Below, piece by piece: positions 4,925 through 32,961 of a DNA stretch of 64,000 bases (positions are counted from its first letter, which is position 1; each line of letters begins with the position of its first letter). The DNA comes from a virus: positions 1-64,000 of IMG/VR virus record IMGVR_UViG_3300028840_001302. One strand, written 5' to 3'. The notes under the pieces were generated by a model. That model saw only the letters and a list, made by a program, of their open reading frames with translations. It searched no databases and had not been told where the DNA came from. A program made the position numbers and the translations under genes.

Positions 4925-4927
4925 ACC

Positions 4928-7227: not shown

Positions 7228-7407
7228 ATGGTCGAAATCCGATGCTCCTGTGGAGCGCGATTCGAGCATCGGGCAGACCGGAGTTATGTGCGGTGTCCTA
7301 ATTGTAGTCGGCGGGATTTTCTTTGGGATATGCGTACACGGTATTACAAAGAAAAGCTGACAGAGAGATGGCTTAAAAAGTGGCGGGATAAACGTGGAAA
7401 AAGCTGA
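7228..7407 (+). CDS. Small zinc-ribbon protein
   Basis: 59 residues. CSCG and CPNC pairs form one zinc ribbon, followed by a basic helical tail ending in RGKS. ATG 7228 is chosen although its SD (AGCAGAG) is weak; an upstream in-frame ATG at 7186 would overlap the previous gene. The end overlaps the next GTG start. Probably nucleic-acid binding. Confidence 0.6.
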   Translation: MVEIRCSCGARFEHRADRSYVRCPNCSRRDFLWDMRTRYYKEKLTERWLKKWRDKRGKS

Positions 7408-8035: not shown

Positions 8036-8630
8036 GGCGATTAAGAAGAAGTGCGCGAACCCGAAATGCCGTAATACTTTTGAAGTCCCGTCCCGCTATG
8101 CTGGTCGTGCAGGAGCGAGAAAGTTTTGCAGTACGACTTGCTCCAATCGCGGGAATGCGAGAGTTTTAAAAGACCTCAAAACTCGATTTAAAGAAAAACT
8201 TAAGAAAAAGGGTAAGTGTCTTCTTTGGACCGGAGGTACAAACGGTTCCAAAGATGTCACCCATCGTTACGGTATTTTTAAAATTGGCAAGCAAAGAATT
8301 CTCGCCCATCGTTTTGCATATCAACTTGCGACAGGGAAAAAAGTTCCTAAGAATAAAATTCTCATACACACATGCCGTAATACTCTCTGCTGTAATCCGA
8401 AACATCTTAAGCTCGGAACGCATTCGGACTTCTCAGAAAAATCGAGACAGAAAGGCGCGAAGCATTGGAAGACTGACCTCACCGCTAAAGATGTTCGGTA
8501 TATGCGGAAGCGTTACAAAGATTCCGGAAATGATAGAGCGGAATGTGAAGCTTTGGCAGAAGAATACGGACTCAAATCTAACACGGTCTATTCTATTGTC
8601 CGTGGTTACTCGTGGAAATCAGTTAAGTAG
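7968..8630 (+). CDS. HNH endonuclease with N-terminal zinc finger
   Basis: 220 residues from GTG 7968 (AAAGGAG SD). Order: a Lys/Arg-rich start; a zinc finger CANPKC...KFCSTTC (about residues 29-58); an HNH_3-type nuclease core with LLWTGG, HRYGIFKIG, AHRFAYQLATG, IHTCRNTLCCNPKHLKLGT (about 84-150); and a C-terminal helix-turn-helix/NUMOD-like segment (LTAKDVRYMRKRY ... SNTVYSIVRGYSW). Homing-type phage HNH enzymes use this plan to recognise and cut DNA. It sits inside the operon without disrupting a neighbour, so it is a free-standing nuclease gene. Confidence 0.85.
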   Translation: MGKNGRGKYKRKKGKKYGRKKGKAIKKKCANPKCRNTFEVPSRYAGRAGARKFCSTTCSNRGNARVLKDLKTRFKEKLKKKGKCLLWTGGTNGSKDVTHRYGIFKIGKQRILAHRFAYQLATGKKVPKNKILIHTCRNTLCCNPKHLKLGTHSDFSEKSRQKGAKHWKTDLTAKDVRYMRKRYKDSGNDRAECEALAEEYGLKSNTVYSIVRGYSWKSVK

Positions 8631-9750: not shown

Positions 9751-9936
9751 ATGGGTAAGAATATTAGAGTCACCCATACGAAGACCAATTATAGACGGAC
9801 ATGCGGGAGGTCCAAACTGTTCATCCGTTATTTCATTTGGGTAGATGGTAAGCTACATGGAGAGACCACAAATATAGACCATGCTAAGAAATTCGTGGAG
9901 GAAAACGGAGCAAAGTGGGAAGATGTTTTCAAGTAA
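9751..9936 (+). CDS. Small basic hypothetical protein
   Basis: 61 residues, ATG 9751 with GAAAGGAAAAT upstream. It reads as two to three beta strands plus a helix (FIRYFIWVDGK, then HAKKFVEENG), which could be a tiny nucleic-acid-binding fold. It lies alone between a terminator and a promoter; it may be translated from read-through. No family recognised. Confidence 0.6.
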   Translation: MGKNIRVTHTKTNYRRTCGRSKLFIRYFIWVDGKLHGETTNIDHAKKFVEENGAKWEDVFK

Positions 9937-9963
9937 AAAATACAAAAAATTTGAAATTGAGGC

Positions 9964-9991
9964 TTGTTAGAGATAGCCGCTCCTGTATAAT
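9964..9991 (+). promoter_or_regulatory. Sigma70-type promoter of the fibre cassette
   Basis: TTGTTA (9964-9969), 16 nt, TATAAT (9986-9991, in context CCTGTATAAT). It lies 34 nt before the SD and ATG of the fibre gene. Confidence 0.75.
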
Positions 9992-10024
9992 ACTGTAAAG
10001 GAACTCTAATACAGGAGAGGGCTT

Positions 10025-16877: not shown

Positions 16878-17451
16878 AGGTAGGCCAGTGAGAGGTCACG
16901 CATATAACAAACAGGATAAAAACAGGTTCGCGGAACTTGAAAATCTTGGATGTTATAAAAAGTACGGTTTTGGGAACGGATATTTCCGGGATGAGGATGA
17001 GAGGGAGAAGAAAGATATGCTTCCTTCCCCTTGTGCCAAATGTCCTAAAAATGCGAAATGTTATAAAAAGACGGAACAGGCCGCGAATCCTTCCGACCCG
17101 AAGGAAATGCTCGTGGTACTCGGTCTTAATGAAATCGAAGGCACAACCGCGAGAGTTATGAGTGACATTCGGGCAGATGTAGAGGAACTTCCTCCCGTTG
17201 CCGGGATGAGAGATATGCAGGAGTTTTATAAAATATCTCCGTGTAAAGGTAAGTATGGTTTCGGGACCGGATACTGGTTCTCAGATGAAGTACCAATATG
17301 CGGGATTTGTGGTCTTCAAAAAAGTTGTTATGCTGAATTCCAGAAACAGCTTATCGAAGGTATCCCGCTTATCGAAAATTATGTGAAGAATATGTTGGAT
17401 GGAGCGCAAGCAAGAAACGATGGCGAAGTCTTCACAAAAGAAACAAGTTAG
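16870..17451 (+). CDS. Zinc-binding protein with duplicated Cys module, next to terminase
   Basis: 193 residues. ATG 16870 has an excellent AAAGGAGGTGG SD and overlaps the previous stop. It contains two related modules: KYGFGNGYF followed by PCAKCPKNAKCY (about 37-75), and KYGFGTGYWF followed by ICGICGLQKSCY (about 130-160). Each can bind zinc and both share the order KYGFGxGY, CxxC, CY. The position just before the large terminase is where a small terminase subunit is usually found, but no standard small-subunit fold is visible; this is a candidate DNA-recognition partner only. Confidence 0.6.
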   Translation: MARGRPVRGHAYNKQDKNRFAELENLGCYKKYGFGNGYFRDEDEREKKDMLPSPCAKCPKNAKCYKKTEQAANPSDPKEMLVVLGLNEIEGTTARVMSDIRADVEELPPVAGMRDMQEFYKISPCKGKYGFGTGYWFSDEVPICGICGLQKSCYAEFQKQLIEGIPLIENYVKNMLDGAQARNDGEVFTKETS

Positions 17452-19801
17452 AAAAAAATGTCTGTGCGGATGTGGTAAACTTGTCCCAAAGGCAAAATCT
17501 GGAATGAAGCAACCTTCATTCTGCCGGGGACACCATCCGATGCAGAGATTGAATAAAACCAAAAAAGAGAAAATTAAAAAGAGAAAAAAGAAGAAACCGG
17601 ATGCGAAGAGACGCAACCCTAAAAATCCGCAAGAGCAAGTTGATAAAAGTAGAATATGTATATATAAAAAACCAGATGGCTCTCCCTGCAAAGCGATTGC
17701 ATTAAAAGGGAAAGATTACTGTACTTTCCACTCCCCCGCAAACATGAAACAGAAAAGCCCTGTCCTTAAAAAGGGAGAGTATTTAGGCTCCCCTCTGAAG
17801 TCCGTAGATGATGTAATGAAGGACGGTAAACCGTTTGAGCTTCGCTGGTTTGAGAAGCACTATATGAAGCGGATTTATGAGTCGGTTTCCCCATACTTCG
17901 CAGCAATTAAATCCGCGCAAGTTGGTATATCTGAATATGAGTTAATGAAAATAATATGGTTCATCCGTAAATATGGAATGACCGCACGGCGTAGGGTCAT
18001 GCTCACTCTTCCAACCGCCACGGATGCAAAAGACTTTTCTAAGGACCGCATTGATTCTATTCTTTGGGAGAACCGTAAATTATTCGGACACGAAAAAGAA
18101 AAAAGGAAGAAGTGGACCGATAATGTCTCTATGAAAGAAGTTGCAAATTCCTTAATATTCATACGCGGTACTAAAGGTAAAGCACGGCATACTTCGACTC
18201 CTTCTGATATGAATATCCATGATGAAGTTAATTTCTCCGATGCTGTCACGATGAGTAAATTTGCTTCGCGTCTAGGAGCTTCAGAATTTCAATGGGTCAA
18301 TTGGATTTCCACTCCTACTTTTCCGGGCGAAGGTATTGACGAAAAATTCCAAGACGGATGCCAATTTCATTTCCACGTCCCCTGCACGGATTGTGATAAT
18401 TGGGTAAAGCTTTGTTGTGAACCTCTCGAACACATGGACCACGAGAATGATATTTGGGCTTGTGAAAAATGCGGAGGGGAACTTGATAGAGCGGCAGGAA
18501 GATGGATTGCAGAGAGGCCCGAACTCATTGGAGAAAAAGAAAGCTTTCATATTACGAATCCGATGCGTCTTAATGAGACACCCTCCTCTATAATGGCGAA
18601 AAAAGATGATTATAAGCGTGAGGCCGATTGGTACAATTTCGTTCTCGGATTAACATTTGAGTCAACAGGCAATCGTATAGCACCTCTCGCTTTGGAAGCA
18701 TGTACGAATGCCGCATATAAATTACATCTGCGTGATGATAGACCTTGCACGATGGGCGTTGACCAATCTTCCAAATGGCATCACATCCATATTTCTTCGT
18801 GGGATGCTAAAGCTCGTAGGCAAACCGTATGGGTAGAGAAAGTTGATACGGAAGAATCATTTGATTCAACTCTCGATTTACTTATGCGGCAGTTTAATAT
18901 TGTGATAGCCGTTATTGACGGTTCTCCGAATTTAAACTCCGCGAAAAAATTTGCTAAGAAACATAAAGGTCGTGTCTTCGTACACTTTCATAATGATAAA
19001 ATGTTTGATGATGTCCAATGGGACGAAAAAGAACATAAAGTCGTTACAAATAAAACGCAGATGATGGATAAGCTCTCTGAGGAAGTTAAACGTCTCGAAT
19101 GGATTTGTCCGGACCATCCGCGTACACGGGAACTTAAAAAGCATATTAAAAATATGCGGAGACGTGCCGGGGATGAAGAGGAAGAAAAAGATGCACGTTG
19201 GGTGAACGTGGGAGAGGACCACTTCAATGATGCGTGGATGTTTGATTTTATTGCCAAGATTCGTGCAAAGGAATTTTACGAACCCCAAGTAAGAATCTCC
19301 ACCATAGGTCCGGATGTGGACCAAAAAGAGTCCGAAGATATCGTAATGGAGCTAATCAAGGTCGATGATGTTGAGCAGATTTTTTCGTATTTTATTCAAA
19401 AAAATCGTGGAATGTTCGTTGCCGACATGGTATTATCTCCATCAGCGAAGGAAGTTTTCATAAATCTCGAAAAATCCTTCGGAGTCAAAAAAATATTGGA
19501 GGTATCAAAACCCTCACCTCATAACGCAAAATTTCTATCAGAGTTGATGGAGTCTCAAAACCATGCGGAAGAAGAAGACGCAAACAGGGACTCGGACGGG
19601 GAAGAAGAAATCCCGGACTACGACCCGAACCCCCACGAAGTCTTTGAAGACGAAAAACACAACGAAAGCTTCAAAAAAAGCTCCTCCAAAAAGGCCGCGA
19701 AAAAGAAAGCGAAGAAAAAGTCCAAACGTGGAAATACTCCCGGTGTCGCAAGGGATACCACCACAGGGGTTGCAATCACCGCAATCACCAATGATAAGTA
19801 G
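17420..19801 (+). CDS. terL: Terminase large subunit (GpA-type) with N-terminal zinc fingers
   Basis: About 793 residues. It packages DNA: ATPase plus nuclease. Near 165-172 is SAQVGISE, a GpA-type Walker A variant; NIHDEVNF is Walker B. The nuclease half has GVDQSS, VIAVIDGSP and FNDAWMFD acidic residues. A CxxC pair (CTDC, CEKC) sits between the halves. Unusually, the first 110 residues carry two extra cysteine clusters (CLCGCG...FC.GHH and CIYKKPDGSPC...YCTFH). The tail from about residue 715 is acidic, then Lys-rich. Start ATG 17420 versus 17399 is uncertain; neither has a strong SD. Confidence 0.85.
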   Translation: MAKSSQKKQVRKKCLCGCGKLVPKAKSGMKQPSFCRGHHPMQRLNKTKKEKIKKRKKKKPDAKRRNPKNPQEQVDKSRICIYKKPDGSPCKAIALKGKDYCTFHSPANMKQKSPVLKKGEYLGSPLKSVDDVMKDGKPFELRWFEKHYMKRIYESVSPYFAAIKSAQVGISEYELMKIIWFIRKYGMTARRRVMLTLPTATDAKDFSKDRIDSILWENRKLFGHEKEKRKKWTDNVSMKEVANSLIFIRGTKGKARHTSTPSDMNIHDEVNFSDAVTMSKFASRLGASEFQWVNWISTPTFPGEGIDEKFQDGCQFHFHVPCTDCDNWVKLCCEPLEHMDHENDIWACEKCGGELDRAAGRWIAERPELIGEKESFHITNPMRLNETPSSIMAKKDDYKREADWYNFVLGLTFESTGNRIAPLALEACTNAAYKLHLRDDRPCTMGVDQSSKWHHIHISSWDAKARRQTVWVEKVDTEESFDSTLDLLMRQFNIVIAVIDGSPNLNSAKKFAKKHKGRVFVHFHNDKMFDDVQWDEKEHKVVTNKTQMMDKLSEEVKRLEWICPDHPRTRELKKHIKNMRRRAGDEEEEKDARWVNVGEDHFNDAWMFDFIAKIRAKEFYEPQVRISTIGPDVDQKESEDIVMELIKVDDVEQIFSYFIQKNRGMFVADMVLSPSAKEVFINLEKSFGVKKILEVSKPSPHNAKFLSELMESQNHAEEEDANRDSDGEEEIPDYDPNPHEVFEDEKHNESFKKSSSKKAAKKKAKKKSKRGNTPGVARDTTTGVAITAITNDK

Positions 19802-22619
19802 CCCCTTCGTACCAACTCTTAGAGAGATGGTCGAAAACATAACCCTTCAAAAAGCGGAACTCGCAAAAAATATTGCTGAAGGTGAACGGCGCGGAAAAAT
19901 AACTTCCGGACGCGGAGGTTATTATCAGCAAAGAGTCGAAGTCGCCATTCAGGATATGTACCTTGCGCTTTACCGAAAACATCCGTGGGTAAAAACTGCG
20001 GTTAACCAAATCGCACGAGCGGTACTCGGTACACACTTCCAGATAGTCCCTTCTCGATATGTAAAAGAGACGCAAGCAAACCCCGACCCCGACCAGAAAA
20101 AAGTTTTGATGGATTTGATTTATCATCCGAATCCGGACGAGACACAATCCTTCTTAATCTTTTGGGGTCTAGCCCGTCTTAAAATTTGCGGCGAAGTTTT
20201 TTACGAAGTCGAACCTGATGGAATGAATAATCCGAGAAACGTCTATACATTGCAAGGCCGTGTACTGGTTAACGTGGACCCATTCACCGGAGAGTTTAAA
20301 GACCCGAAGTACATACAATACCTTAATCGTACTGGCGCAATGTACGGGACTCCTTTTGAAGATGAAGAAGTCATTCACATAATTGACCCGAATCCTATAG
20401 GCGGTATTCGTGGTCACTCTGATATGGAAGCTTTAGAGCTTTCCTTAATAACCGATATTTTCGCGCAACAGTTTAATAAGAATATTTTCGTAAACGCCGG
20501 GAAACGAACTCTGATATTCCAACTCCAAAAAGGATTAAGCCATACCGAAGCGGAACGTAACAGACATGAAATCCGGCAGCATTATCAAGGTGCGGTCAAA
20601 GCGCATTCGCCTTGCCTGATAATCGAAGGTGAAGTGGACATTAAAGACTTGCAAGAAAAACTGCAAGATATCGAATTTATAAAAGGCCGCGAACAGGTGC
20701 GACAGGAAGTTCTCTCTACCTTCGGAGTTCCTCCGACAAAAGTAGGTCTCGAACAGAAAAATGTCGATGCCACGGAAGCGGATACTCAGTTCTCGAAAGA
20801 TACCATTCGTCCAGTAGTTGTAACTTTACAGGACGGGTTAAATCATTTCTTCGCAACAAAATATGGTATCACGGATTGGGAACTGAAACTCAACTACGTT
20901 GAAACGAAAGATGAAAGAAGGCTCGCCCGACTTCTCGAAGTTATCGGGAAACGCGGATATGCCACGATTAATGAGGCAAGAGAATATCTCGGTCTTGCAA
21001 GACTTCCGGATGGAGATGTTATCCGTGTATATAGTCAGAAGACCGGGACTTTTATAGACCCATTAGACCCTCCCGAACCAATAAGGCCGGATGTACCAGC
21101 GCAACAACAACCTCCGGGGGAGGGTGATACCGAAGCTCAAGATGCTTTGCGGGACTTGCTTGACGATGGCGGTTCTCTCGAAGACATCATGCAACTCTTA
21201 GGTGATATGTTTACAGAGGATGAGCTTCGGGAGGTAGCTCCTGATTTTTTTACGAGCAAGGACGTTCAACAGATTGGGACTGACTACGCTAAAGAATTAG
21301 CGGAGGAAATAAGTAAAATACAATCAGGAGTAATGAAGAAGTTTGAAAATCTCTCAAAAGATGTAAAGTTAGATGATGGCATAGATTTCGAGTTCCCTGA
21401 AATTCAAATAGATATGTTCCCAAGTGGCAGCTTCCGTGTCTCTACAGTCGGCGCGTTAAGACGTGGGTATATGGAAGGCCAAAGGGAACTAGCTCGGAAA
21501 TTGGGACAGAAAGTAAAGTGGTCTCTCGTTCCGAAGTCCGAGTTCAAGATGATGAAGTCCCGTGCGAACAGAATTGCTCGGAGATTGCAACGAGACCTAT
21601 TCGCAGGGGAACCGAAATCAGGAAGACTCGGAGTAAAACGTGCGTTGTTAAGAGCGGAAAAAGAAGGTTGGTCAATGGACAAACTTCGGACTACGCTCGA
21701 AAGATATTTTGAAGAGAGTAAGAGTTGGAAAGCTCTACAAATAGCCCGGACTGAAATCATGCGCTCTTACTATATGGGTATGGCAAGAGCGGCAAAGAAA
21801 ATGAAATACGGTTTCGCTTATATTCAGTTGGGAGCGAAACCCTGTTCATTCTGTTCTGCGGCGGCGGCAAATTTGGGCGTGAATAAGCTCGAAGTAATTT
21901 TAGATTTCTTCGCAGGACATCACCCGAATATTGATTGTATGATGGTGGTCGTGAAAAAAGCAGGGAAGGATACACCACCTTTAAAGAAAGTTCCGGAAGG
22001 TTTCAAACCTATGGCAAATATGTGGACCGCGAATCTAGGGTATGCCGTTGATGATGAAGGTTGGGGTAGCGTGGCACTCGCGGAAGAACATACTGAAGTC
22101 TGGAAACGTATCGGGGATATTGAAAAAAATCTTCACTATCTCACACGTTTCGATTTTATGGAAAAAAGCGATATTCCGGAACTCGCTAAAGCATTGGAAA
22201 AGCTTCCGGATTGTCTCGTATCGAGAGGTGTATTCGAGCTTATAAATTTTGTCGAATTTCATAACTCGCTTCCCGGAAAAATGGCAGGGAAATATTTACC
22301 GGATGCGAGATACTTCCAACTTTCGCGTTACAGGTCGAAAGATTGGGGTGCTGTCTGGACGGAACTCGTTGGGAGGTTGATGCACGATGTATTGAATTTC
22401 ACGGACCGTGAAGTTCGTATTGACGAAATTTTATCTTCAACATACGATGATGAGATACTCGAACATCTTAGAGCGAAGTACAACATGATAGGAAGAATGA
22501 CCGCGAGTGAATTTGCGAAAAGCTTCAGGCTTTTCTTCGAGTCACCGACTCTTCTTTCTCAAGAGTCGCCTGATATATACGATTTGGTTTCCCGGCTTGC
22601 AAGTCCGATGATGGAGTAA
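19563..22619 (+). CDS. Portal protein fused to MuF head-morphogenesis domain
   Basis: 1018 residues if started at ATG 19563 (GGAG ten bases upstream); 942 if started at ATG 19791, which lacks a nearby SD. The portal domain covers about residues 85-490 (HPWVKTAVNQIARAVLG; GIRGHSDMEALE; FGVPPTKVG). A MuF-type minor-head domain follows (about 640-800), with ARTEIMRSYYMG and PCSFC ... HHPNIDC. The last 200 residues contain TELVGRLMHDVLN and ASEFAKSFRLFFESP, which look like a zincin metallopeptidase that lost the HE of HEXXH. The portal forms the DNA channel; MuF proteins enter the capsid. The long start overlaps terL by 239 nt and gives a very basic N terminus. Confidence 0.82.
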   Translation: MRKKKTQTGTRTGKKKSRTTTRTPTKSLKTKNTTKASKKAPPKRPRKRKRRKSPNVEILPVSQGIPPQGLQSPQSPMISSPFVPTLREMVENITLQKAELAKNIAEGERRGKITSGRGGYYQQRVEVAIQDMYLALYRKHPWVKTAVNQIARAVLGTHFQIVPSRYVKETQANPDPDQKKVLMDLIYHPNPDETQSFLIFWGLARLKICGEVFYEVEPDGMNNPRNVYTLQGRVLVNVDPFTGEFKDPKYIQYLNRTGAMYGTPFEDEEVIHIIDPNPIGGIRGHSDMEALELSLITDIFAQQFNKNIFVNAGKRTLIFQLQKGLSHTEAERNRHEIRQHYQGAVKAHSPCLIIEGEVDIKDLQEKLQDIEFIKGREQVRQEVLSTFGVPPTKVGLEQKNVDATEADTQFSKDTIRPVVVTLQDGLNHFFATKYGITDWELKLNYVETKDERRLARLLEVIGKRGYATINEAREYLGLARLPDGDVIRVYSQKTGTFIDPLDPPEPIRPDVPAQQQPPGEGDTEAQDALRDLLDDGGSLEDIMQLLGDMFTEDELREVAPDFFTSKDVQQIGTDYAKELAEEISKIQSGVMKKFENLSKDVKLDDGIDFEFPEIQIDMFPSGSFRVSTVGALRRGYMEGQRELARKLGQKVKWSLVPKSEFKMMKSRANRIARRLQRDLFAGEPKSGRLGVKRALLRAEKEGWSMDKLRTTLERYFEESKSWKALQIARTEIMRSYYMGMARAAKKMKYGFAYIQLGAKPCSFCSAAAANLGVNKLEVILDFFAGHHPNIDCMMVVVKKAGKDTPPLKKVPEGFKPMANMWTANLGYAVDDEGWGSVALAEEHTEVWKRIGDIEKNLHYLTRFDFMEKSDIPELAKALEKLPDCLVSRGVFELINFVEFHNSLPGKMAGKYLPDARYFQLSRYRSKDWGAVWTELVGRLMHDVLNFTDREVRIDEILSSTYDDEILEHLRAKYNMIGRMTASEFAKSFRLFFESPTLLSQESPDIYDLVSRLASPMME

Positions 22620-22623
22620 AGCC

Positions 22624-24213
22624 ATGCTGATTAATCTGCAAACGCAATTTGAAAAAACTGTAGTTGATTACACTGATGCCGAACTCTCCGGAATGTGGAG
22701 TGAGCTTTCAGAGCGTTGGGATAAGCTTATGAAAGCGGGTGTCAGTGAAGGTGAAGAATGGACGGAAGTTTCCGAGCAGGGTAGAGTCGTGCTTTCGGAA
22801 ATAGTGCGTAGAAAAAAACAAACCTTCGAGACCATGACCTACAAAAATGACGCGCTTCTCCCGTGGCAACTCGGAGGGATTGCTGATGAGTCCCTCCTTC
22901 TCACAGATTTGAGAATGCGGCAGCTTCTTAATAAAGAGATAAAATATCTCGTGCTGGTCAGTCCCACTCCGTTCACTGGATTTTTTAAGGCGGTCACGAC
23001 TGATTCGGAAATGGGTTTTATTCGCTTCGGTTTCACCGAAGATAATGTACTCCCTGATAAAGAACTTAAGGATTACAAATTCGATGATGTTTATATGCGT
23101 GTTGAAATCGGAGAATTAGAAAAATACTCCAAGTTCCACGGTCTTTCGGATGAAGAGGTAGAGAAACTTAAAGACGGTGGAGTGCAGTATGTATATATGT
23201 ATCCGGTCCGGGAGGTATTGCAGCTAGACAATCCTTATGATTATGGTGAGTCCGTAGCAACGGCGAATTTTTTAGAGCGTGAACGCATGGGCTTTGATGT
23301 CCGATTGAAGAACTCGCCAGTAGTTGTTTACGGGTCTTTCTATTTCATCTTACCTCAATTGGCGCGAATGTTGGACATGGTTCCTCACAATCGTTTCGTT
23401 GAGGTATTCTCCGGACCGGGAGATTTTAGCCTTGAGAAAAAGCCTGTCGATGAAAACATTATGAATGATATAGACAGTGAAGTTCTCATGCTGTTTAAGC
23501 TTCTCAAGGATATTTCTATAAAAGAGATTTTGACTCTGCGGAAAAAGGAGTGGAGGAGAAACAAAGATGTCTGGAAAAAACTCCGAGCATCCAAACCCAC
23601 TGAGCCAATCGAAAAACTTTACCGCTATTTCTATCTCGCCCGTTGCGGAGACATTCTCGGTAAATCCCCTGCCTCAGTGGATAAACGATATTTTTCAAAA
23701 TTCAATACCGGAGTCCCGAAAGACGATGCCGAACACGGCTTTGGTAAAAAGGTCCGTGCTGAGAGACTTATTGAGCAAGCGATAGTATCCAATGCGAAAT
23801 TGCAGAGGATAACTTTCTCGAATCAGGATTGCATGAAAATAGTGGAGGAGTTTAAAGACGACCCGGATGCTTTATTTTTCTGCGACCCTCCATATCTTGA
23901 TGTGACTTTCGGGTTTGGTTACAAAACGGATGCGAAGAATATTGACTTCCCGAAGTTTGCAAAACTGTTGCAATCGGTTAAAGGGAAGTGGGTCTTTTTA
24001 CATAACGCACATGCGACTATAATGAAACTTTTCAAAGATAACCACCTTGTTAAGTTTCTCGGAGTCAAGAGACCTCCGTTCTTCGGAAAGAAAAAGAAAA
24101 AAGAAAAAGCGGAACGTGCGCTTTATTATATGTTCGCTAACTTCGATATAGGAAAACTGATGAAACTCACGGACAGAGGTTTCACCTCTGGTCCTACGAC
24201 CATTTGCGTCTAG
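22624..24213 (+). CDS. Dam-like (D12 class) adenine methyltransferase with extra N-terminal domain
   Basis: 529 residues. The methyltransferase part runs from about 230. VFSGPGDFSLEK (261-272) stands for the SAM-binding FxGxG motif, NDID (281-284) is the ribose-binding acidic site, and CDPPYL (420-425) is the catalytic DPPY. With DPPY intact it may be active on adenine N6. Residues 106-200 hold a separate domain (IRFGFT ... YVYMYPVRE) that recurs in the next, giant protein. The placement between portal and capsid genes suggests head association. SD GGAG, 4-nt gap after the portal. Confidence 0.75.
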   Translation: MLINLQTQFEKTVVDYTDAELSGMWSELSERWDKLMKAGVSEGEEWTEVSEQGRVVLSEIVRRKKQTFETMTYKNDALLPWQLGGIADESLLLTDLRMRQLLNKEIKYLVLVSPTPFTGFFKAVTTDSEMGFIRFGFTEDNVLPDKELKDYKFDDVYMRVEIGELEKYSKFHGLSDEEVEKLKDGGVQYVYMYPVREVLQLDNPYDYGESVATANFLERERMGFDVRLKNSPVVVYGSFYFILPQLARMLDMVPHNRFVEVFSGPGDFSLEKKPVDENIMNDIDSEVLMLFKLLKDISIKEILTLRKKEWRRNKDVWKKLRASKPTEPIEKLYRYFYLARCGDILGKSPASVDKRYFSKFNTGVPKDDAEHGFGKKVRAERLIEQAIVSNAKLQRITFSNQDCMKIVEEFKDDPDALFFCDPPYLDVTFGFGYKTDAKNIDFPKFAKLLQSVKGKWVFLHNAHATIMKLFKDNHLVKFLGVKRPPFFGKKKKKEKAERALYYMFANFDIGKLMKLTDRGFTSGPTTICV

Positions 24214-24222: not shown

Positions 24223-27200
24223 ATGTTTACGATACAATTTTTAGGAACTCGTGGACTCGTTCCTCAAAGCTCGGAACTTCACAAACAGTTCTCCGCTATG
24301 ATAATCGAGTGGAAGAAACAAGCGGTCCTTTTTAATTTCGGGCTGACTTGGAAAGATGCCCCTCTTCCTGAAGTGGATGCAATCTATCTCTCACACGGTC
24401 ATATAGACGACATCGGAGGCTTGCAGGACCGCACGGTTGATATTCCGATTTACTGTTCCGAAGCAACGAAAGAACTTTTACCAAAAAGTTTGAAGGCATC
24501 GGATATCCGCATCGTTCCCCGTGACGGAAAAATCGAACTCTTGGATTGGGAGGTGGAATGCTTCCCTGTCAAACATGCGACTTACGCACCAGTGACAGGA
24601 CTTGCGCTCTACATCGACAACAAAAAAGTTGTTGTACCTTTCGATGTTCTCGAAATACCGGAGCTTGATATTCTTTTTGATACGGACGTTTTTATCGCGG
24701 ATGGCGACCAACTCGAACAGGATACTCGCAGGAGAGACGAAGATTCCGGTGAGATGCACGGACACGGTTCACTTCAGAAACAACTCCGCTGGTGTAACTC
24801 ATTTAAAATTCCTGTGATGCTTATTCATCATTTCGGCAAAGACGCTATCAAAATGAGTCCGGAAGATTTACTTGATTGGCTTAATGAATCTTCCAAGAGG
24901 ATTGCTCCGAGAACCCTTGCGATTCCAACATGGGACGGGAAGACAGTTCAGGTTGAAGGGAATAATGTTCTTTGGGAACGGATGAACGGCGAAGTCGTGA
25001 AACAGAAAATGCCGAAACCCGTTGACCCGGAGAAGCCCGGAGAATTTTTTATCCCGCATCCACAAAGACTTTCAAAAAATTTACTCGAAGAAGCGAGAGC
25101 GGTGTCAACGCAATTGCTTTCTTCAGGTCGTGATAACATGGTTCTTTACGAACCGAAACTACGGTATCTTCCATATATCTACACGAAGGCCGGAAAAAAT
25201 ATCGCGGCCTTAAGTGATGGAATGTTCAAACAGATTAAGCCGATGGTATTGTCTTACCCGGATTGCCTCACCAACACCGAAGAAGTGAATCGTCTCGCAA
25301 AGGAATTCGATTTCGCCACGGAAGATTTTCCTCTTATACTGGCTTTTCTGAAGAGATGTAAAGTTGTGAAGGCGAGTTCTTTTCTCCGCAACTTCAATGC
25401 AGAAAGATTAAGTGATTACATCGTGCTATCCACTTCGGAAGAATTGAAGTGGCCTTCCAGTATGGAACATATCCAATTGGCAAAAATGGAAGTCTCCGAA
25501 GAAGTTCTTATGAAGAGACCGCTTCCAATCGGAGGAGGCCGGGGATTCATGCTCGATGTTCTCAGTCAGTTTGAAGACTTCAGTAAATATGATAAATATG
25601 TTGAGCCTTTCGCTGGCGGGGCTACATTATTCTTCCACAACATCGAAAAACTTAAAGGTAAGACGGTAGTGTTGAATGACACTGACCCTCTCGTTGTAGC
25701 GTGGTTACGTTTCCTCCGTGATGGAACGGATGAGCAACTTGAAAAGCTTCGCGGTTTCGATTGGAGACCGAAGAAGGAAACTTTCAAGAGGCTGAAGAAC
25801 ACCGCAGCGACAACGATGCTCGAAAAAGTTTACAAACTTATATACACAACGATATATTCGTGGCAGGGATTGAGAGACTCTTTCTCTGCCGACAGGGAAG
25901 AACGTATCCATAATCTTCTTTCGGACAAAAAAATAAACAGGTTCCGTGAAGCAATGAAAGCAATTAATCCGACCATCACTCAAGAGGATGGTTTGGATGT
26001 AATGAAAGAGTACGACAGTCCGAGAACATTCTTTTATCTTGACCCGCCGACAAAACTTAATTTTTCAAAGGCATTCAAGACGGAAGAATTTCAGAATGCG
26101 GAAAATCTTGAGAAGTTCTTCAACTTACTCGCGCATGTCGAAGGTGATTTCTTCTGGACCACTAATCCGACTGACCGTTATAAAAAACTTCTCACGAGAA
26201 AATTCCTTGCGAATGGTCGTCACCTTTATACTTTGACACGGAAGGGGAAAGATTCGTACCCGGAAATAATTGTATCGAGCATGGAACTCCCTTTCAAAGA
26301 CACACGGAGATGGAAAGTCGGAACGGCTTTGAAAGATGTTCGGTGGAGAGCAGACCTTAATGCGCTCATGTATAATAATCATAAATACCGGGAAGATATT
26401 TTCCTTAACATCCCCAAAGTAGAGCTTCGTTCCGGGTTGGCTGAATTGTCCACGGATGATACATGGCTCTTCGGTGTGAGCAACATCCCGATAGAAAAAA
26501 TAGACCCGGATTGGTTGCACAGTCTTGATGTAACCGAACTGATGATGATTCACGCAAGACTCCATGCACTTTATTACCAATGGAAAAAAGAAGGCAAGAC
26601 GATTGAGCCTCTCGTGAACGCACACCAATTTGTTGCGAATGAAATCCGGGGACGTGGACTCGAACACCGTATCTCTACGGACATTGACCGTCTATCTAAA
26701 AATCAGAAGAACGCATCGGACTTTGATATAGAAAAGGAAATGCAGGACTTTTTAACGATGCGTCCTTATGCTTACATCGTGGGTTCTATCGTTGTGAACG
26801 GTTTCGGGAGAGATGTGGATATTTTAACTCGTGATACACGGTATAACGAAACCTTCAGCGATAACGTGCAGACATATTTAAAGCACATGGGAGTCCCGGT
26901 ACACATTTTCCCGGACCCGATAGGACCATTCACGTCATACAAGCCTCTCGTGTCGATGGGTTACTTCCGTGAAGTAAATAAGAAAGCGGTTCCGGAGGAG
27001 CTTTCACAATATTGGTACGAAGATGAAGACAGATTTTGCTATCTCTCGGATGTCGTGGAAAAACTTCCGGAGTTTTACGAGAGTAAGCCTTGCGTTTTTT
27101 ACTCAGTAGATAAGGATACTTACGTCCTGCATCTGCTCTCCGATGAAAACACGGATATTAAAGCACTTAAATTCCGTTTATCGTGGCAACTTAATGAGGT

Positions 27201-29811
27201 TAAGCATCGTTTTGAGGAAGTAACCGAAGCTCCGGAGGGAGCCAAGCCACTTTTCACTCGCGGTTGGGTTCCCGAAGATGCCGGGGAAATCATAACGATG
27301 AGTGATGCAGAGAAAAAGGATATCCAAAAAGCGGAAAAAGACGAGACTGAAGATGTCTCTAATGGGAAAGTTAGTGCCATTGTCGTTAATTCTCAGGAAA
27401 CTAAGACCGATGGTGTTTATTTATACGATTGCGCTTTGGAATTCGGTGAATTTAAACCGACACCTTCCGCACTTGTTACCGTTGAGGGAAGAAACTACGC
27501 TAATGTAGGAAGATTCGCTTCAGTTATAAAATTAAATAAAGGTGATATTATCGAATTAAGCTACAGGACTCTCGATTTCGTGAGATTCCCGAATGATTTT
27601 TCAAAAATCACGCTCCGTAAACTTCAATTCGAGAATAAGTCCGATGTGATTGACACATTCGCTTCCGCTCTGAAGAAAGCGGAGTCCTTCGATACGCTTT
27701 CAAAGCAAAAATTGAAGGCGGGAGAGAATAACCTTGAGACTTTTACGCAGCAAGACCTAGTTAAAAGCATTGAGAAGTACGACCCGTCTGAAGTAGCGGA
27801 TGATGTACTATCCGATGATTGGAAAATCGTGAATGCGTGGTTTTCTACGGTTCGGCAGGGCAAACAATTTAAATATGATGCCTCTACCGTCCTAAGTGTA
27901 GGTAAAAAAATATTCCGTGAGTTAGTCCGGAGGGAGAAAGTAACATTTCGTCCGGAAAATCTCTCCCGGAATTCACTCGAATTCCTGCAAAGAATTCTCT
28001 CAGAGGAAATCGACAGGGGTATGGTGTTACCAGACTCGCAAGCAGAGAGGATTATGAAAGGTGAAAAGAAGGCCGTAGTAAAGTCAAGGCCATTTGATGT
28101 ACCCACTTTCATACTACTTACTGGTTCAGACGGAAAAGTTTATGGTTGGCTCCGCTTTGGCTTTACTCGGCTTAATACCCCGAAGCAATTGCAGGGGAAG
28201 GTCAAGGAAGGTGAGACATTTGCGAAAATAACGAAGGAAGAGTTTGAGGCACTCCGGGATATCCATAATATTACGGACGATGAGAAAGAAAAATGGTGGC
28301 CCGGAAGCAACGACCTTTATATTTATCCAATCAGAGAATTCGTTAAAATAGAAACGAAGAATCTGATTCATCTTCCGAAGGATAATGAAGGTTTCATCAA
28401 GGGTGTCTTCATAGAAGACCAAGTTGGTTCTAAAATCGAGAATTTTCTTCCCGAAGAACGGACAGCCGTGGAACTTCAGGAATCCAAACTCGTAATTCCT
28501 CAGACAGTGAGGAACGAAATTAATAAGTGGAGAAATATTACACGGAAAGAAGTTGCCAAGAGAAGTCCATCGAGTTTCCCTGAATACTTCTTTGTGATTG
28601 AGAATCATTTCCGTGGAAAATCTTCACATCTCGACCTGAGAATCATGCAGCCGGGGAAAGAATACCTTAATGGGTTCACGGTTCTCTCCGAAGTTCCGGA
28701 CACGATAAAGAAACCCGTGCTGACATTGAAAGAGGCCGCGAAATTCTCGGACCTTGATAATCGCAAACTTTGGAAATTCCATCCCGACATGGACCCCAAT
28801 AAGCATGTGCGTGTTGAGATGAAAGAGAAACAACCTCCTGAATGGTTAAAGATGGTCCGGAAAGTTATACCGCCGGGAGGTCCGGGCGCAACGAAGGAAT
28901 TCCCCGGTGTATTTTGGGGAGTTGATTGGGGCATCCTGTATCCGGGAGTCACGGACAAAGGCAGATTCAATTTGCATAAGCCGTGGTTCCAAGAATTCTT
29001 TTTGTACGGAAAAAAATTCAAGGGACGTTTGGTTCTCAGGTATATCTCCGGCGATTCTCCGCATTGGGAAGCATGGATGGCGAAGGACCAGACACCGTAC
29101 CTTATGACTTCGGGAGCGAGAAAGAAAAAAGATTACATTCCACCTAAAGATGTCTCCGGATTATCTCCGGATTTTGAAGCTTTGATTCCAACTGAATTGA
29201 AGTGGTGGGGTCCGGATGCGCCGGATAATAAAGATGAAATCTTTAAGCGGATGGAGCAAGCTCGTCTTCTTCTCCGGGACAAAGGTGTTTTGAAAGAAGC
29301 GGAGAACAAAGATAATGTCGTAGGTCTCGCTAAAGATGCAGAATTCACTGTTCACTATCTCTGGTCGAAGGGTCCAGATGTGGTCCGTAAACTTCGACAG
29401 GAAGATTTCATTATAAGAGTCCGTGAGGGGAATGAAGTCACTACATGGAATTTGGGTAAGGATTCACCTTTCTGGATTAAGAGAGGTCAGGCTTACAACG
29501 TACAAAATGAAGTGACGAAAAATTCTCCTCCCGACAAACATTCACCCGTGGATTGGATGGATTGGGAAGGTGAACTTCCACCGAGTCACCCGCTTAATCC
29601 AAACAAGGAACTTCCTCTCAACGTGGAGGTTCTCGATGCAGGGGATGTGGATATAATCTCGGAAACGTCAGAATCCCTCCATTATCGCTTCAATGGCAAG
29701 AAATTAAAAGGGGACTTCATTTTTGTGCGGGAAGACGCTAATACCCCCAATTGGAGGTTCCAGAAGGGAAAATTGCCAAAAAAAGCAGAATCGACAGTAA
29801 GTAGTTTCTAA
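24223..29811 (+). CDS. Giant multi-domain DNA-enzyme protein (MBL, Dam-like, NTase-like, OB-like, LigD-PE-like)
   Basis: 1862 residues, one uninterrupted frame. Domains in order: metallo-beta-lactamase fold 1-210 (SHGHIDDIGG at 57-66, Asp160, His180/182, His202/203); Dam-like methyltransferase 432-690 (EPFAGGA 461-467, NDTDP 485-489, DPPT at 607-610 in place of DPPY); nucleotidyltransferase-like 849-920 (GS 854-855, DVDIL 864-868); OB-like beta domain about 1049-1136; the domain shared with the preceding gene 1293-1375 (LRFGFT, YIYPIRE); and two parts resembling the LigD 3'-phosphoesterase domain, 1453-1610 (HFRGKSSHLDLR, GKKFKGRLVLR) and 1700-1845 (GKKLKGDFIFVR). Lying between portal and scaffold, it may be a capsid-internal protein delivered with DNA; that is inference. 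Confidence 0.75.
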   Translation: MFTIQFLGTRGLVPQSSELHKQFSAMIIEWKKQAVLFNFGLTWKDAPLPEVDAIYLSHGHIDDIGGLQDRTVDIPIYCSEATKELLPKSLKASDIRIVPRDGKIELLDWEVECFPVKHATYAPVTGLALYIDNKKVVVPFDVLEIPELDILFDTDVFIADGDQLEQDTRRRDEDSGEMHGHGSLQKQLRWCNSFKIPVMLIHHFGKDAIKMSPEDLLDWLNESSKRIAPRTLAIPTWDGKTVQVEGNNVLWERMNGEVVKQKMPKPVDPEKPGEFFIPHPQRLSKNLLEEARAVSTQLLSSGRDNMVLYEPKLRYLPYIYTKAGKNIAALSDGMFKQIKPMVLSYPDCLTNTEEVNRLAKEFDFATEDFPLILAFLKRCKVVKASSFLRNFNAERLSDYIVLSTSEELKWPSSMEHIQLAKMEVSEEVLMKRPLPIGGGRGFMLDVLSQFEDFSKYDKYVEPFAGGATLFFHNIEKLKGKTVVLNDTDPLVVAWLRFLRDGTDEQLEKLRGFDWRPKKETFKRLKNTAATTMLEKVYKLIYTTIYSWQGLRDSFSADREERIHNLLSDKKINRFREAMKAINPTITQEDGLDVMKEYDSPRTFFYLDPPTKLNFSKAFKTEEFQNAENLEKFFNLLAHVEGDFFWTTNPTDRYKKLLTRKFLANGRHLYTLTRKGKDSYPEIIVSSMELPFKDTRRWKVGTALKDVRWRADLNALMYNNHKYREDIFLNIPKVELRSGLAELSTDDTWLFGVSNIPIEKIDPDWLHSLDVTELMMIHARLHALYYQWKKEGKTIEPLVNAHQFVANEIRGRGLEHRISTDIDRLSKNQKNASDFDIEKEMQDFLTMRPYAYIVGSIVVNGFGRDVDILTRDTRYNETFSDNVQTYLKHMGVPVHIFPDPIGPFTSYKPLVSMGYFREVNKKAVPEELSQYWYEDEDRFCYLSDVVEKLPEFYESKPCVFYSVDKDTYVLHLLSDENTDIKALKFRLSWQLNEVKHRFEEVTEAPEGAKPLFTRGWVPEDAGEIITMSDAEKKDIQKAEKDETEDVSNGKVSAIVVNSQETKTDGVYLYDCALEFGEFKPTPSALVTVEGRNYANVGRFASVIKLNKGDIIELSYRTLDFVRFPNDFSKITLRKLQFENKSDVIDTFASALKKAESFDTLSKQKLKAGENNLETFTQQDLVKSIEKYDPSEVADDVLSDDWKIVNAWFSTVRQGKQFKYDASTVLSVGKKIFRELVRREKVTFRPENLSRNSLEFLQRILSEEIDRGMVLPDSQAERIMKGEKKAVVKSRPFDVPTFILLTGSDGKVYGWLRFGFTRLNTPKQLQGKVKEGETFAKITKEEFEALRDIHNITDDEKEKWWPGSNDLYIYPIREFVKIETKNLIHLPKDNEGFIKGVFIEDQVGSKIENFLPEERTAVELQESKLVIPQTVRNEINKWRNITRKEVAKRSPSSFPEYFFVIENHFRGKSSHLDLRIMQPGKEYLNGFTVLSEVPDTIKKPVLTLKEAAKFSDLDNRKLWKFHPDMDPNKHVRVEMKEKQPPEWLKMVRKVIPPGGPGATKEFPGVFWGVDWGILYPGVTDKGRFNLHKPWFQEFFLYGKKFKGRLVLRYISGDSPHWEAWMAKDQTPYLMTSGARKKKDYIPPKDVSGLSPDFEALIPTELKWWGPDAPDNKDEIFKRMEQARLLLRDKGVLKEAENKDNVVGLAKDAEFTVHYLWSKGPDVVRKLRQEDFIIRVREGNEVTTWNLGKDSPFWIKRGQAYNVQNEVTKNSPPDKHSPVDWMDWEGELPPSHPLNPNKELPLNVEVLDAGDVDIISETSESLHYRFNGKKLKGDFIFVREDANTPNWRFQKGKLPKKAESTVSSF

Positions 29812-29841: not shown

Positions 29842-29869
29842 TTGACAGGTTTTTTCGTACCTGTATAAT
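29842..29869 (+). promoter_or_regulatory. Strong promoter with overlapping inverted repeat
   Basis: TTGACA (29842-29847), 16 nt, TATAAT (29864-29869). ACAGGT (29845-29850) and ACCTGT (29859-29864) form an inverted repeat with an 8-nt centre that covers the -35 and touches the -10: a possible operator. It should drive the capsid operon through a ~125-nt leader. Confidence 0.85.
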
Positions 29870-29998: not shown

Positions 29999-31555
29999 AT
30001 GAGAGACATTCAAATCCTTGACAAGCGAATGCGCGTAGAACCTAGAGTCAGAATTCCGGATGTCACCTTGTTAAAGGTTGGACGTTGGAACGGAAATCGC
30101 TATGTCCGGGAAGAAGTAAAACCTGTCGCAGCCTATCTCATCCGCATTTTCAAGCATGGACCAAAAACACCGGAAGAGTACAACGCTCTTTCGGTTTTTG
30201 TTGGAGCGTCAAAAGACCACGAAGACAGTTCCGGAACTTGGGTCGGAAGGATTCGTGAGCCTTATTGGGACGAGCGTGAAGAAGCTCTCAAAGCTCGTTG
30301 GATGGAAATAGTTGACCAGAAAACCAGTGAAGACATTGCCTACCAAAAACAAAGAGACGGATACTCTTCATACGGAATGTCTCCACGTCTGGAAGTCAGA
30401 CGTGATGGGGATGTATGCCGCGATATCCTCTATCGCACATCAGGCATCGTAATCAACCCTGCTGGTGGGGAAGAATTGTTTCTATCTTACGGCGAAGAAG
30501 ACCATGAGGTTTATGATGAGAGAGACGGGGCTGAACTGGTCAGGGATTTATTCTTTAAAACAGATACGAAAGGTGAACTCGAAATCGTAGAACTTAATCG
30601 GAAAGGAGTTACTACTATGTTCACGCTCGAACAGCTTGGCGAGAAGTACAAAGAGCTTAACGAAAAGCTCGACAAAATCCTTGAGGCGAAGGAGGCCGCC
30701 AAAGGGAAAGGGAAAGAAGACGAAGAAATGTCCTCCGAAGACGCGGGTGTAATCCGCAACGAAATTGCATCTCTTAAAAAGATGATGCTCGAACAGAAAG
30801 AGGCCGAAGAAGAGAAGGCCAAACTCGAAGAGGAAGAAAAGCAGAAGAAACTCGAAGAGGAACACGCGCTTATGACCGCGCACCTCAACGGGGACCACAA
30901 AGAGCTTGACTCCTCATGCCCCGCCTGTTTGAAAGAGCAGGAAGATGCGAAGTGCAAAGACGGGGACGACAAACTTCAGGATGAAGAGGAAGAGGAAGAC
31001 CCGGAAAAGAAAAAGGAAAAGGAAGACGAAGAGGATATGGCGAAAGGTAAGAAAGGAAAAGACGAAACTTTCTACCCCGCATTTTCTCGCGGCAAAGCTC
31101 TCGCGGTTGTGCCAATCGCTCCCCGTTCCTTCGAGTTCGACAAGCTCGACCAGAAGGGTCTCCAACGCTTCACTGAAGACCTTCTCGAAGTTCTCAAACC
31201 GCTTCTCGAAGCAGAGACACTCAAACCGGAAGACCTTGCTACCGTTGTAAACGGCATCGAAGGTCAACTGCTCACGATTCCGTGCGCGGGTCCGGACCCG
31301 GAGTACATCAAAGGTCTCGAAAAGCAGGAAGCGAAACTCTCGAAAGAGAAAGAGAAGGAAATCGAAGAGGAAGTCAAAAAGCGTCTTGAACGCGAAAAGT
31401 TAACCTTGTCGAAGCCGAAAGGCCGCAAGGGTGGAACAGTTCCGGTTATTTCAACGGAAGAGAAGACTGACAAAGAAGAATTTGTCTCTCCTCACGACCG
31501 TCTCGGAGCTTGCCTGTCCAATCTCGCAGGACTTACAGGACAGGAAGGCGAGTAG
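29999..31555 (+). CDS. Prohead protease-scaffold fusion
   Basis: 518 residues. The N-terminal 200 residues read as a caudoviral prohead serine protease: SKDHEDSSGTWVG supplies the His and YSSYGMSPRLE the Ser, ending in a beta-rich ILYRTSGIVINPAGG. The rest is a highly charged, Lys/Glu-rich coiled-coil scaffold, with a Cys pair (CPACLKEQEDAKC) in the middle and a compact C-terminal end that could bind the capsid protein. It directs capsid assembly and is then degraded. The ATG follows GTAGAGGGGC; a 125-nt leader precedes it. Confidence 0.75.
   Translation: MRDIQILDKRMRVEPRVRIPDVTLLKVGRWNGNRYVREEVKPVAAYLIRIFKHGPKTPEEYNALSVFVGASKDHEDSSGTWVGRIREPYWDEREEALKARWMEIVDQKTSEDIAYQKQRDGYSSYGMSPRLEVRRDGDVCRDILYRTSGIVINPAGGEELFLSYGEEDHEVYDERDGAELVRDLFFKTDTKGELEIVELNRKGVTTMFTLEQLGEKYKELNEKLDKILEAKEAAKGKGKEDEEMSSEDAGVIRNEIASLKKMMLEQKEAEEEKAKLEEEEKQKKLEEEHALMTAHLNGDHKELDSSCPACLKEQEDAKCKDGDDKLQDEEEEEDPEKKKEKEDEEDMAKGKKGKDETFYPAFSRGKALAVVPIAPRSFEFDKLDQKGLQRFTEDLLEVLKPLLEAETLKPEDLATVVNGIEGQLLTIPCAGPDPEYIKGLEKQEAKLSKEKEKEIEEEVKKRLEREKLTLSKPKGRKGGTVPVISTEEKTDKEEFVSPHDRLGACLSNLAGLTGQEGE
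30617..31555 (+). CDS. Nested in-frame scaffold protein (internal start)
   Basis: An ATG at codon 207 of the protease-scaffold gene has AAAGGAG (30602-30608) eight bases upstream, as good as any gene start here. Translation from it gives a 312-residue scaffold without the protease, beginning MFTLEQLGEKYKEL. Lambda uses the same plan (C and Nu3), making excess scaffold relative to protease. Confidence 0.7.
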   Translation: MFTLEQLGEKYKELNEKLDKILEAKEAAKGKGKEDEEMSSEDAGVIRNEIASLKKMMLEQKEAEEEKAKLEEEEKQKKLEEEHALMTAHLNGDHKELDSSCPACLKEQEDAKCKDGDDKLQDEEEEEDPEKKKEKEDEEDMAKGKKGKDETFYPAFSRGKALAVVPIAPRSFEFDKLDQKGLQRFTEDLLEVLKPLLEAETLKPEDLATVVNGIEGQLLTIPCAGPDPEYIKGLEKQEAKLSKEKEKEIEEEVKKRLEREKLTLSKPKGRKGGTVPVISTEEKTDKEEFVSPHDRLGACLSNLAGLTGQEGE

Positions 31556-31617: not shown

Positions 31618-32961
31618 ATGTTTGATTGGTCAAAACTGCTTCCGGGCATGGGGAAGACAAGAGAAGAGCTTCTACTTGCTCTGGATACGAACACGGGCGA
31701 CCCGCTAATTCCAGAAGACCTTGAGAAGATTCTGGTTGACCTTGTGAAGTGGAATGCGCCGTTCACCAGAACGGTTGAAGTCATTCGTGCGAATGGCCTC
31801 ATTCACCAGTTCAACCAAATCACCGGGATTCCGACCTCACAGTTTGAGGGCGAGAATGCCGAAACCGTTATCACCAACTCCGGTTACAACCGGGACGGTG
31901 TAACGCTCAAGGTTATCCGTACCAAAGGTCGGGTAACGGGTCTCCTTCAGGCCGCTTCCGCGAAGTACATCAACGCATGGAAGCAAGAACTCATCAACTC
32001 AACGAAGTCGATGGGTCGTACAATCGAGTTCGCAATGCTGTGGGGTAACGCAACGGCTGACGGTTATCAGTACGATGGTGCTGACACCGCAATCCAAAGT
32101 TACCGCTACGACATCAACGCGGTTGCCGACCTTGCCGACCTTGACATGGCTCTGGACGGGGCATACAACGAAGGCGCACAGATGGACCCCTACGTTTTCG
32201 TAATGTCCCCGAACATGGTAAGCCGCATGTCAACCCTCCAAACGGAAATTCGTAAGAGCGTTCCGCTCGATACCATCGAGTTTCCGGGCGGGTTCCGCAT
32301 GACCACTTACCGTGATGTCCCGATGCTTCCGTCAAGCTTCTGTCGTCCGACTTCGCAGATGGGAACGCTTGCTCTCACTTCTGCCGCGAACACTGGTGGT
32401 CTTATGACCCCCGGTGAAGTGTACCGCTATCGCGTGTCGGCTGTGACTTACTTCGGGGAGCAATGCGCTTCCGCGAGTGCATCTCCCGTCACGATTCTTG
32501 CAACCCACAACTCCGTGGAAATCGACTTCACGGCTGTCGCAAACGCGCAGCTTTATAAAGTCTATCGTTCCCCGGATGCTGGTGGTGTGGACACGGAAGT
32601 TCTTCTTTCGACATGGGCGGCAAAGACCTACGATGCCGATGGAACCGTCACGGGTGCGATAACTCAGATTATCGACCTTCTGGACGACAGTTCTCTTGGC
32701 ACGGATTATCCGATGAACCCGGAAGTCGCGGGAACCCGTGGTGTTGACGAGACGATTTTCCTCATCAACATTTCCCCGCAGCAATCGCTGGTTATCGCTG
32801 GTCTTATCAACCCGCAGGGTGAAAAGGTTAACAACCTTGTCCAGCATATCCCGCTTGCCGTGACTCGTGACGCAATGGAGTTTCTCCTGACTTCTTACCA
32901 TGCCCCGGCATGGAAGGGTGAGAAGTTCTCCGCTGTCCTGAGACGCGCACGGACCTACTAA
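31618..32961 (+). CDS. Major capsid protein with Fn3/Ig-like insertion
   Basis: 447 residues. Its position after the scaffold, the SMGRTIEFAMLWGNA helix, PYVFVMSPNMVSRM and the C-terminal LTSYHAPAWKGEKFSAVLRR fit an HK97-fold capsid protein. Residues about 250-360 interrupt the core with a fibronectin-III-like beta sandwich (YRYRVSAVTYFGE ... AQLYKVYRSPD). Surface Ig/Fn3 insertions are known in phage capsids and decorate the shell. Codon use is noticeably richer in C/G-ending codons than its neighbours, as expected for a highly expressed gene. SD GAAAGGAG. Confidence 0.85.
   Translation: MFDWSKLLPGMGKTREELLLALDTNTGDPLIPEDLEKILVDLVKWNAPFTRTVEVIRANGLIHQFNQITGIPTSQFEGENAETVITNSGYNRDGVTLKVIRTKGRVTGLLQAASAKYINAWKQELINSTKSMGRTIEFAMLWGNATADGYQYDGADTAIQSYRYDINAVADLADLDMALDGAYNEGAQMDPYVFVMSPNMVSRMSTLQTEIRKSVPLDTIEFPGGFRMTTYRDVPMLPSSFCRPTSQMGTLALTSAANTGGLMTPGEVYRYRVSAVTYFGEQCASASASPVTILATHNSVEIDFTAVANAQLYKVYRSPDAGGVDTEVLLSTWAAKTYDADGTVTGAITQIIDLLDDSSLGTDYPMNPEVAGTRGVDETIFLINISPQQSLVIAGLINPQGEKVNNLVQHIPLAVTRDAMEFLLTSYHAPAWKGEKFSAVLRRARTY

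Follow-up and report, generated by a model that had tools for sequence, protein, structure and literature searches.

A giant protein encoded among viral head genes is apparently a ligase-less, expanded member of an undescribed portal-linked LigD-like family

The DNA analysed here, referred to below as the window, is a stretch of 64,000 nucleotides (positions 1 to 64,000) of the virus record IMGVR_UViG_3300028840_001302, which comprises 98,341 bases and may be incomplete. Among its head genes, the window encodes an 1862-residue multidomain protein, designated P0001, in the following setting:

17399..19801, + strand: terminase large subunit (TerL) with N- and C-terminal extensions (phrog_675, E 2e-86)
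19563..22619, + strand: portal protein fused to a MuF-like C-terminal region (PF04860, E 1.7e-40; phrog_2662 portal)
22624..24213, + strand: P0002, 529 aa, a copy of the helical and ASCH modules followed by a Dam-like methyltransferase (PF02086, E 6.8e-15)
24223..29811, + strand: P0001, 1862-aa multidomain protein, a single open frame with a ribosome-binding-site (Shine-Dalgarno)-like AGGGGA ahead of its ATG start
29842..29869, + strand: perfect sigma-70-type promoter TTGACA-16-TATAAT, just behind the P0001 stop and before gene 29999
31618..32961, + strand: major head protein (phrog_752, E 4e-9; phrog_212, E 7e-8)

The gene order therefore reads TerL, portal-MuF, P0002, P0001, gene 29999 and major head protein. 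The preliminary description of this DNA had placed P0001 inside the head operon after portal-MuF, which the family matches of the neighbouring genes bear out; its label 'scaffold' for 29999-31555 stands without confirmation, the protein having no family match. The portal-MuF protein also gave head morphogenesis matches (phrog_2468/1657) and carries the motif CSFC...HHPNIDC, and its true start may lie later than 19563, given the overlap with the TerL frame. The 1862 codons of P0001 run uninterrupted, as had been reported from the first reading, and GC content by codon position is even along the entire gene—with no internal frameshift visible. Three perfect sigma-70 sites occur in the window, against 0.03 expected. 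In the promoter at 29842-29869, an inverted repeat (ACAGGT-N8-ACCTGT) spans the spacer and is a possible operator controlling the capsid genes. Since bacterial-type genes serve replication (PolA, a primase-DnaB helicase, RecA, a 5'-3' exonuclease and an SMC/SbcC-like ATPase) and the sigma-70 promoters are perfect, the host is probably a bacterium. Two side observations concern other virus-encoded genes. A MoxR-type AAA ATPase (bpMoxR, E 4e-49) and a VWA-domain protein are found at 60370-61539 of the window and at 857-2308 of contig L005, and the DNA polymerase A encoded at L005 2887-5682 shows, in an N-terminal stretch, a weak similarity to uracil-DNA glycosylase (PF03167, E 5e-4).

Along P0001 itself, the following domains and segments were delimited:

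24223..24867, + strand: metallo-beta-lactamase-fold (MBL) domain, aa 1-215 (PF12706 Lactamase_B_2, E 5.2e-12, residues 46-204)
25567..26175, + strand: D12/Dam-like adenine methyltransferase, aa 449-651 (PF02086 MethyltransfD12, E 4.9e-12; phrog_56, E 2e-18)
26521..26691, + strand: helical module, aa 767-823 (BLASTP to the 1130-aa protein of L007, E 0.002 in a small set)
26740..26967, + strand: Pol-beta-type nucleotidyltransferase (NTase), aa 840-915 (21.4 bits with the relatives' profile, a score reached by 0/1000 shuffles)
26968..27354, + strand: position of the ligase adenylation domain in relatives, aa 916-1044 (no ligase signal in P0001)
27355..27612, + strand: OB-fold domain, aa 1045-1130, with homology to the OB of the relatives' ligases (19.1 bits, 0/1000 shuffles)
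27757..27999, + strand: second helical module, aa 1179-1259 (BLASTP in a small set, E 2e-12 to L025 and 2e-7 to L007)
28015..28377, + strand: ASCH-fold domain, aa about 1265-1385 (Foldseek on the AlphaFold model, best match 5Y6B)
28591..29142, + strand: first LigD-phosphoesterase-like (PE) domain, aa 1457-1640 (profile, fold and homology matches)
29335..29787, + strand: second LigD-phosphoesterase-like segment, aa 1705-1855 (supported by ANMV-1 and L007 homology and by a repeat test)

The two N-terminal domains are recognised above the Pfam cut-off, and both depart from the canonical form of their families. In the MBL domain, the metal motif is H58-G-H60-I-D62-D63, i.e., HxHxDD instead of HxHxDH. 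Comparison with the ligase-fused MBL of L024, in which the corresponding motif reads HAHEDA as opposed to HGHIDD, yielded 17 bits, a score that 0/1000 shuffles reached. The Dam-like domain retains the SAM motif EPFAGG and carries D607PPT610 at the catalytic position of DPPY. In the upstream protein P0002, the DPPY of the Dam-like methyltransferase is intact. Residues 15-202 of P0002 match 1190-1377 of P0001 and residues 228-470 match 429-657, which marks P0002 as a partial paralogue of P0001. The tandem Dam-like proteins, one with DPPY and one with DPPT, may act as a pair.

The central part of P0001 is marked by what it retains as well as by what it lacks. The NTase motif, GSIVVNGFGRDVD, occupies residues 854-866; D864 and D866 are kept, and in the alignment the third acid of most relatives is absent. 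No Pfam match to a primase-type (AEP) polymerase domain was obtained in P0001 at E values up to 1. Residues 916-1048 scored -2.5 bits with the relatives' ligase profile, and 506/1000 shuffles did equally well; PF01068 (ATP ligase) is absent from the entire 98-kb record, across which a separate ATP or NAD DNA ligase, an RNA ligase and Ku were also sought and none was found. Residues 950-1035 look to the eye like the C-terminal half of a ligase and were considered as a possible remnant, an idea that found no support in the shuffle test. By sequence comparison, P0001 appears to have lost the ligase domain that its relatives carry between NTase and OB. AlphaFold models of P0001 were of low confidence except for the ASCH and helical parts; those of NTase and OB were practically alignment-free, because MAFFT alignments of many fragments scattered these pieces. 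Weak or implausible matches to DnaJ and SNM1 in a PDB sequence search were set aside.

In the helices of aa 767-823, pLDDT was about 80; P0001 residues 756-835 yield no match with the profile built from the second helical module. That second module (aa 1179-1259) is common to P0001, P0002, L007 and L025. For the domain that follows it, the top Foldseek matches were ASCH structures (5Y6B: E 4.5e-4, probability 1.00), and homologous regions occur in L007, in L032 and at the C-terminal end of the L025 portal.

The assignment of the first PE domain draws on several lines of evidence. A profile built from P0001, L007 and ANMV-1 retrieved, at E values up to 10, only two distinct PDB sequences, and both are LigD PE domains (3P4H, E 0.018; 3P43, E 0.049). 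The AlphaFold model, although poor (pLDDT 48), had as its two best PDB matches the PE domain of Pseudomonas aeruginosa LigD (3N9B, E 0.37), and a viral fold library returned no significant match for this low-confidence model. P0001 itself is not matched directly by PF13298, a family detected in the homologues L007 (E 4e-7, just below the cut-off) and L029 (E 4e-4). The profile and fold tests are each weak alone, and together they agree with the PF13298 matches in these homologues. A metal triad and an arginine are present as H1462, H1469, D1471 and R1473—with the H-H-D ligands invariant in all nine members compared and the arginine found in eight of the nine—and they correspond to His42, His48, Asp50 and Arg52 of the P. 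aeruginosa LigD PE (PMC8656161). In that enzyme, His84 and Tyr88 are also essential (PMC8656161); on alignment by eye, their equivalents are replaced across the family by E/Q/K and an invariant Trp, such that P0001 lacks the full LigD PE active site. The second segment is the weaker case, has no metal triad, and is homologous to ANMV-1 and to the repeats of L007. Most of these domains had been anticipated: the preliminary description named the HxHxDD MBL site, the Dam-like methyltransferase with DPPT, a GS...DVD nucleotidyltransferase motif, an OB-like domain and two LigD-phosphoesterase-like segments, and the profile, shuffle and homology results support each of them, the second PE segment more weakly. 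Overlooked in that first reading were the ASCH domain, the helical modules and, above all, the relatives of P0001.

When P0001 was compared with proteins of phage records, the sole match outside the Dam domain was AJP62006.1 of the archaeal virus ANMV-1 (KP703175), annotated as 'ATP-dependent DNA ligase' (residues 1448-1841, 27% identity, E 3e-15). Pairwise comparison places the NTase, OB and PE parts of both proteins in the same order, and in ANMV-1 an intact ATP ligase domain (PF01068, E 6e-17) lies between NTase and OB. A Phage_portal_3 gene directly precedes the ANMV-1 gene, which is followed by one whose C-terminus looks MuF-like. Pattern scanning of viral contigs from a single sequence, be it P0001, its C-terminus or TerL, recovered no relatives; further members emerged when the scans of viral contigs, and of contigs from metagenome-assembled genomes (MAGs), were based on alignments. 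The NTase-ligase-OB-PE cassette, whole or partial, recurs in the head blocks of viruses from about six divergent groups; nearly all of these proteins are encoded within the head genes, usually directly behind the portal gene. The ligase adenylation domain, with its KxDG lysine, is present in ANMV-1, L007, L026, L029, L032 and L033. In L007, next to the major head genes, one gene encodes ASCH, helical module, NTase, ligase and OB, and the next gene three PE-like segments; L026 encodes a complete 1225-aa NTase-ligase-OB-PE-PE protein, the counterpart of which is split into two genes in L025. Complete, split or contig-cut proteins are encoded behind portals in L025/L026/L033 and in L029/L031/L032—directly behind them in L029, L031, L032 and L033, the L031 portal being judged by its likeness to that of L029. 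An MBL-ligase fusion lies behind the portal in L024. In L009, L011 and L017, the interval from portal/TerL to maturation protease contains PE as a gene of its own, joined in L009 by a separate NTase gene. In L025 (4821-6482), the portal itself ends in an ASCH domain, i.e., a module of the family is fused directly to the portal.

Some members display further peculiarities. In L025, the ligase is split over two genes (6510-7775 and 9896-11902) with two unrelated, apparently structural genes between them; the ligase of L030 is apparently split at the same point, and those of L026 and L027 are unsplit. A gene insertion or trans-acting halves are possible explanations. The L026 protein (4924-8601) contains a PEGA domain (residues 119-186, E 8e-9) between helical module and NTase, and the portal-MuF fusion encoded at 3879-8204 of L009 is 1441 aa in length, its long extra C-terminal part giving a weak, metallopeptidase-like match (PF06167, E 0.03).

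The collinearity of its NTase, OB and PE parts, together with the head-block position, makes P0001 a member of this portal-linked family, within which it is a ligase-less, expanded form with MBL and Dam domains added; the family is apparently undescribed. It also occurs in viruses of methane-oxidising archaea, beside the probably bacterial virus of P0001: L029, L031, L032 and L033 are MAGs named Methanosarcinales and Methanophagales, names which may reflect the binning of viral contigs and are not proven hosts.

The repeated place behind the portal suggests action on DNA that passes the portal in either direction. The explanation that we favour, with a probability of roughly 0.45, is that P0001 is a portal-proximal protein of a LigD-like family acting on the ends or nicks of viral DNA at the portal, in which the ligase has been lost. 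The ground plan of this family would be NTase, ATP-dependent DNA ligase, OB and one or more phosphoesterases, often with ASCH and helical modules. In members bearing a ligase, PE could trim 3' ends in a metal-dependent manner and the NTase could tailor the ends before ligase and OB seal them. The most likely substrate would be DNA that enters a new cell along with the protein—which would imply that P0001 is packaged in the virion and injected—and the alternative would be DNA undergoing packaging. In P0001, the OB, ASCH and helical parts may bind DNA and the first PE possibly trims 3' ends, whereas sealing would be left to a host ligase; the added MBL may hydrolyse nucleic acid or nucleotides, and the added Dam-like domain may mark or protect viral DNA. 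For such an injected multidomain protein, the polyvalent proteins of portal-terminase phages, which include adenine methylases and NTases, provide the precedent (PMC5512222). A virion-associated role in DNA repair or modification had been proposed in the preliminary description; this idea is strengthened by the recurrence of the cassette in head blocks and by the ASCH domain fused to the L025 portal, while 'repair enzyme' may overstate P0001, with its altered catalytic motifs and without the ligase domain of its relatives. Bolder, and in our judgement doubtful, is the proposal that tailed viruses of bacteria and of methane-oxidising archaea carry in their capsids a portal-linked counterpart of LigD, its primase polymerase replaced by a Pol-beta-type transferase, that heals and seals the entering genome, and that P0001 is its ligase-less form for end processing and DNA marking.

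Catalysis by P0001 is uncertain because of DPPT, HxHxDD, the missing third NTase acid and the replacement of His84 and Tyr88 in the phosphoesterase. These same features, along with the missing ligase domain and a second PE devoid of the metal triad, would fit a catalytically degenerate DNA-binding scaffold—internal or portal-proximal, with OB, ASCH, helical and PE parts holding DNA ends and most of the enzymes inactive—and inactive enzyme domains do occur in virion proteins, e.g., the PBECR domain of the phage Mu MuF protein (PMC5512222). A mainly structural, DNA-end-binding role is thus a serious rival, albeit one that we think unlikely, in view of the EPFAGG motif, the PE triad and arginine and most MBL ligands that remain in P0001, and of 1862 codons kept free of stops and frameshifts. 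Distinctly unlikely is a repair role confined to the packaging stage, in which the family would mend nicks, gaps and blocked ends of concatemers at the terminase-portal complex and would not be injected. Nicked substrates are a recognised problem for packaging motors, and the gene shares its operon with TerL and portal, the L009 and L011 members being placed between TerL and maturation protease; however, a late position predicts only the timing of expression, and neither MBL nor Dam has an obvious packaging role. Counter-defence is improbable as the main function. Here, Dam and MBL would shield incoming DNA or destroy nucleotide signals, the LigD-like half serving as a tether to the DNA end or the portal. 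Adenine methylases and signal-degrading hydrolases do recur in polyvalent proteins (PMC5512222), and the adjacent upstream gene encodes another Dam protein, whose DPPY is intact, but the core conserved across lineages is NTase-ligase-OB-PE and not Dam or MBL, and DPPT argues against efficient methylation by P0001 itself. Finally, although the contig is metagenomic and the collections scanned yielded no close relative of P0001 itself, a chance fusion of neighbouring genes, a frameshift artefact or a chimeric contig is scarcely credible and was rejected on the continuous frame, the even codon-position GC, the domain order shared with ANMV-1 and the adjoining partial paralogue.

If the favoured reading of P0001 as a ligase-less member of a portal-proximal LigD-like family is correct, an end-repair machine sits beside the portal in tailed viruses that infect bacteria and archaea alike, and this would link genome ejection or packaging to DNA-end healing and provide a Ku-free LigD-like system for study. 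The giant P0001 and the unexplained 'DNA ligase' of ANMV-1 would then fall into one testable family with a defined domain order and clear losses.

The individual domains of P0001 are all known already, and it is their arrangement that invites comparison with known systems. A literature search that covered few subscription papers returned no paper joining phage, LigD, phosphoesterase and portal. The preliminary description knew of no comparable named phage protein. This holds for the exact combination, which was not found elsewhere, but not for the C-terminal half, to which ANMV-1 AJP62006 is homologous, nor for the overall design, of which polyvalent proteins are a named class. In ANMV-1, the protein of 866 aa (vs 1862 in P0001) is likewise encoded near the portal and has the collinear NTase, OB and two PE-like segments; it lacks the MBL, Dam and ASCH domains of P0001 and keeps the ligase adenylation domain. 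The ANMV-1 source paper (PMC4372165) does not mention the ligase or discuss its function, and the word 'ligase' does not occur in the ANME-1 virome paper. Polyvalent proteins of phages and conjugative elements (Iyer et al. 2017, PMC5512222) are, like P0001, large, composed of disparate enzyme domains—adenine methylases and NTases included—and encoded beside portal/MuF genes, and their injection, like that of P0001, is inferred. P0001 combines at least two unrelated enzyme domains (MBL and D12 above the Pfam cut-off, with NTase, ASCH and PE-like segments besides) and is encoded with portal-terminase genes (TerL and portal-MuF upstream, a capsid gene downstream), the traits by which polyvalent proteins are recognised, their genes lying with portal-terminase or T4SS genes. 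The text of that paper mentions neither LigD nor ASCH, and its passage on ligases concerns RNA ligases. With bacterial LigD (PE-POL-LIG) of non-homologous end joining, P0001 shares nucleotidyl transfer, a ligase-type OB and probably the 3'-phosphoesterase fold, and it keeps the His-His-Asp triad plus Arg of PE. It differs from LigD at His84/Tyr88, in having no ligase catalytic domain, in having a Pol-beta-type NTase where LigD has the primase-type POL, in the lack of Ku from the record and in being encoded among head genes. The DarB-type methylase of phage P1 is another large, head-associated N6-adenine methylase and protects DNA in cis (PMC5512222); DarB pairs its methylase with a SWI2/SNF2 helicase, whereas P0001 has no helicase and carries DPPT. 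Lastly, a stand-alone ligase DNA-binding domain of jumbo phages, proposed to recruit host ligase (PMC7824862), offers a parallel for a ligase part kept without the catalytic domain; in that case an alpha-helical domain stands alone, whereas P0001 keeps OB, PE and NTase within one giant protein.
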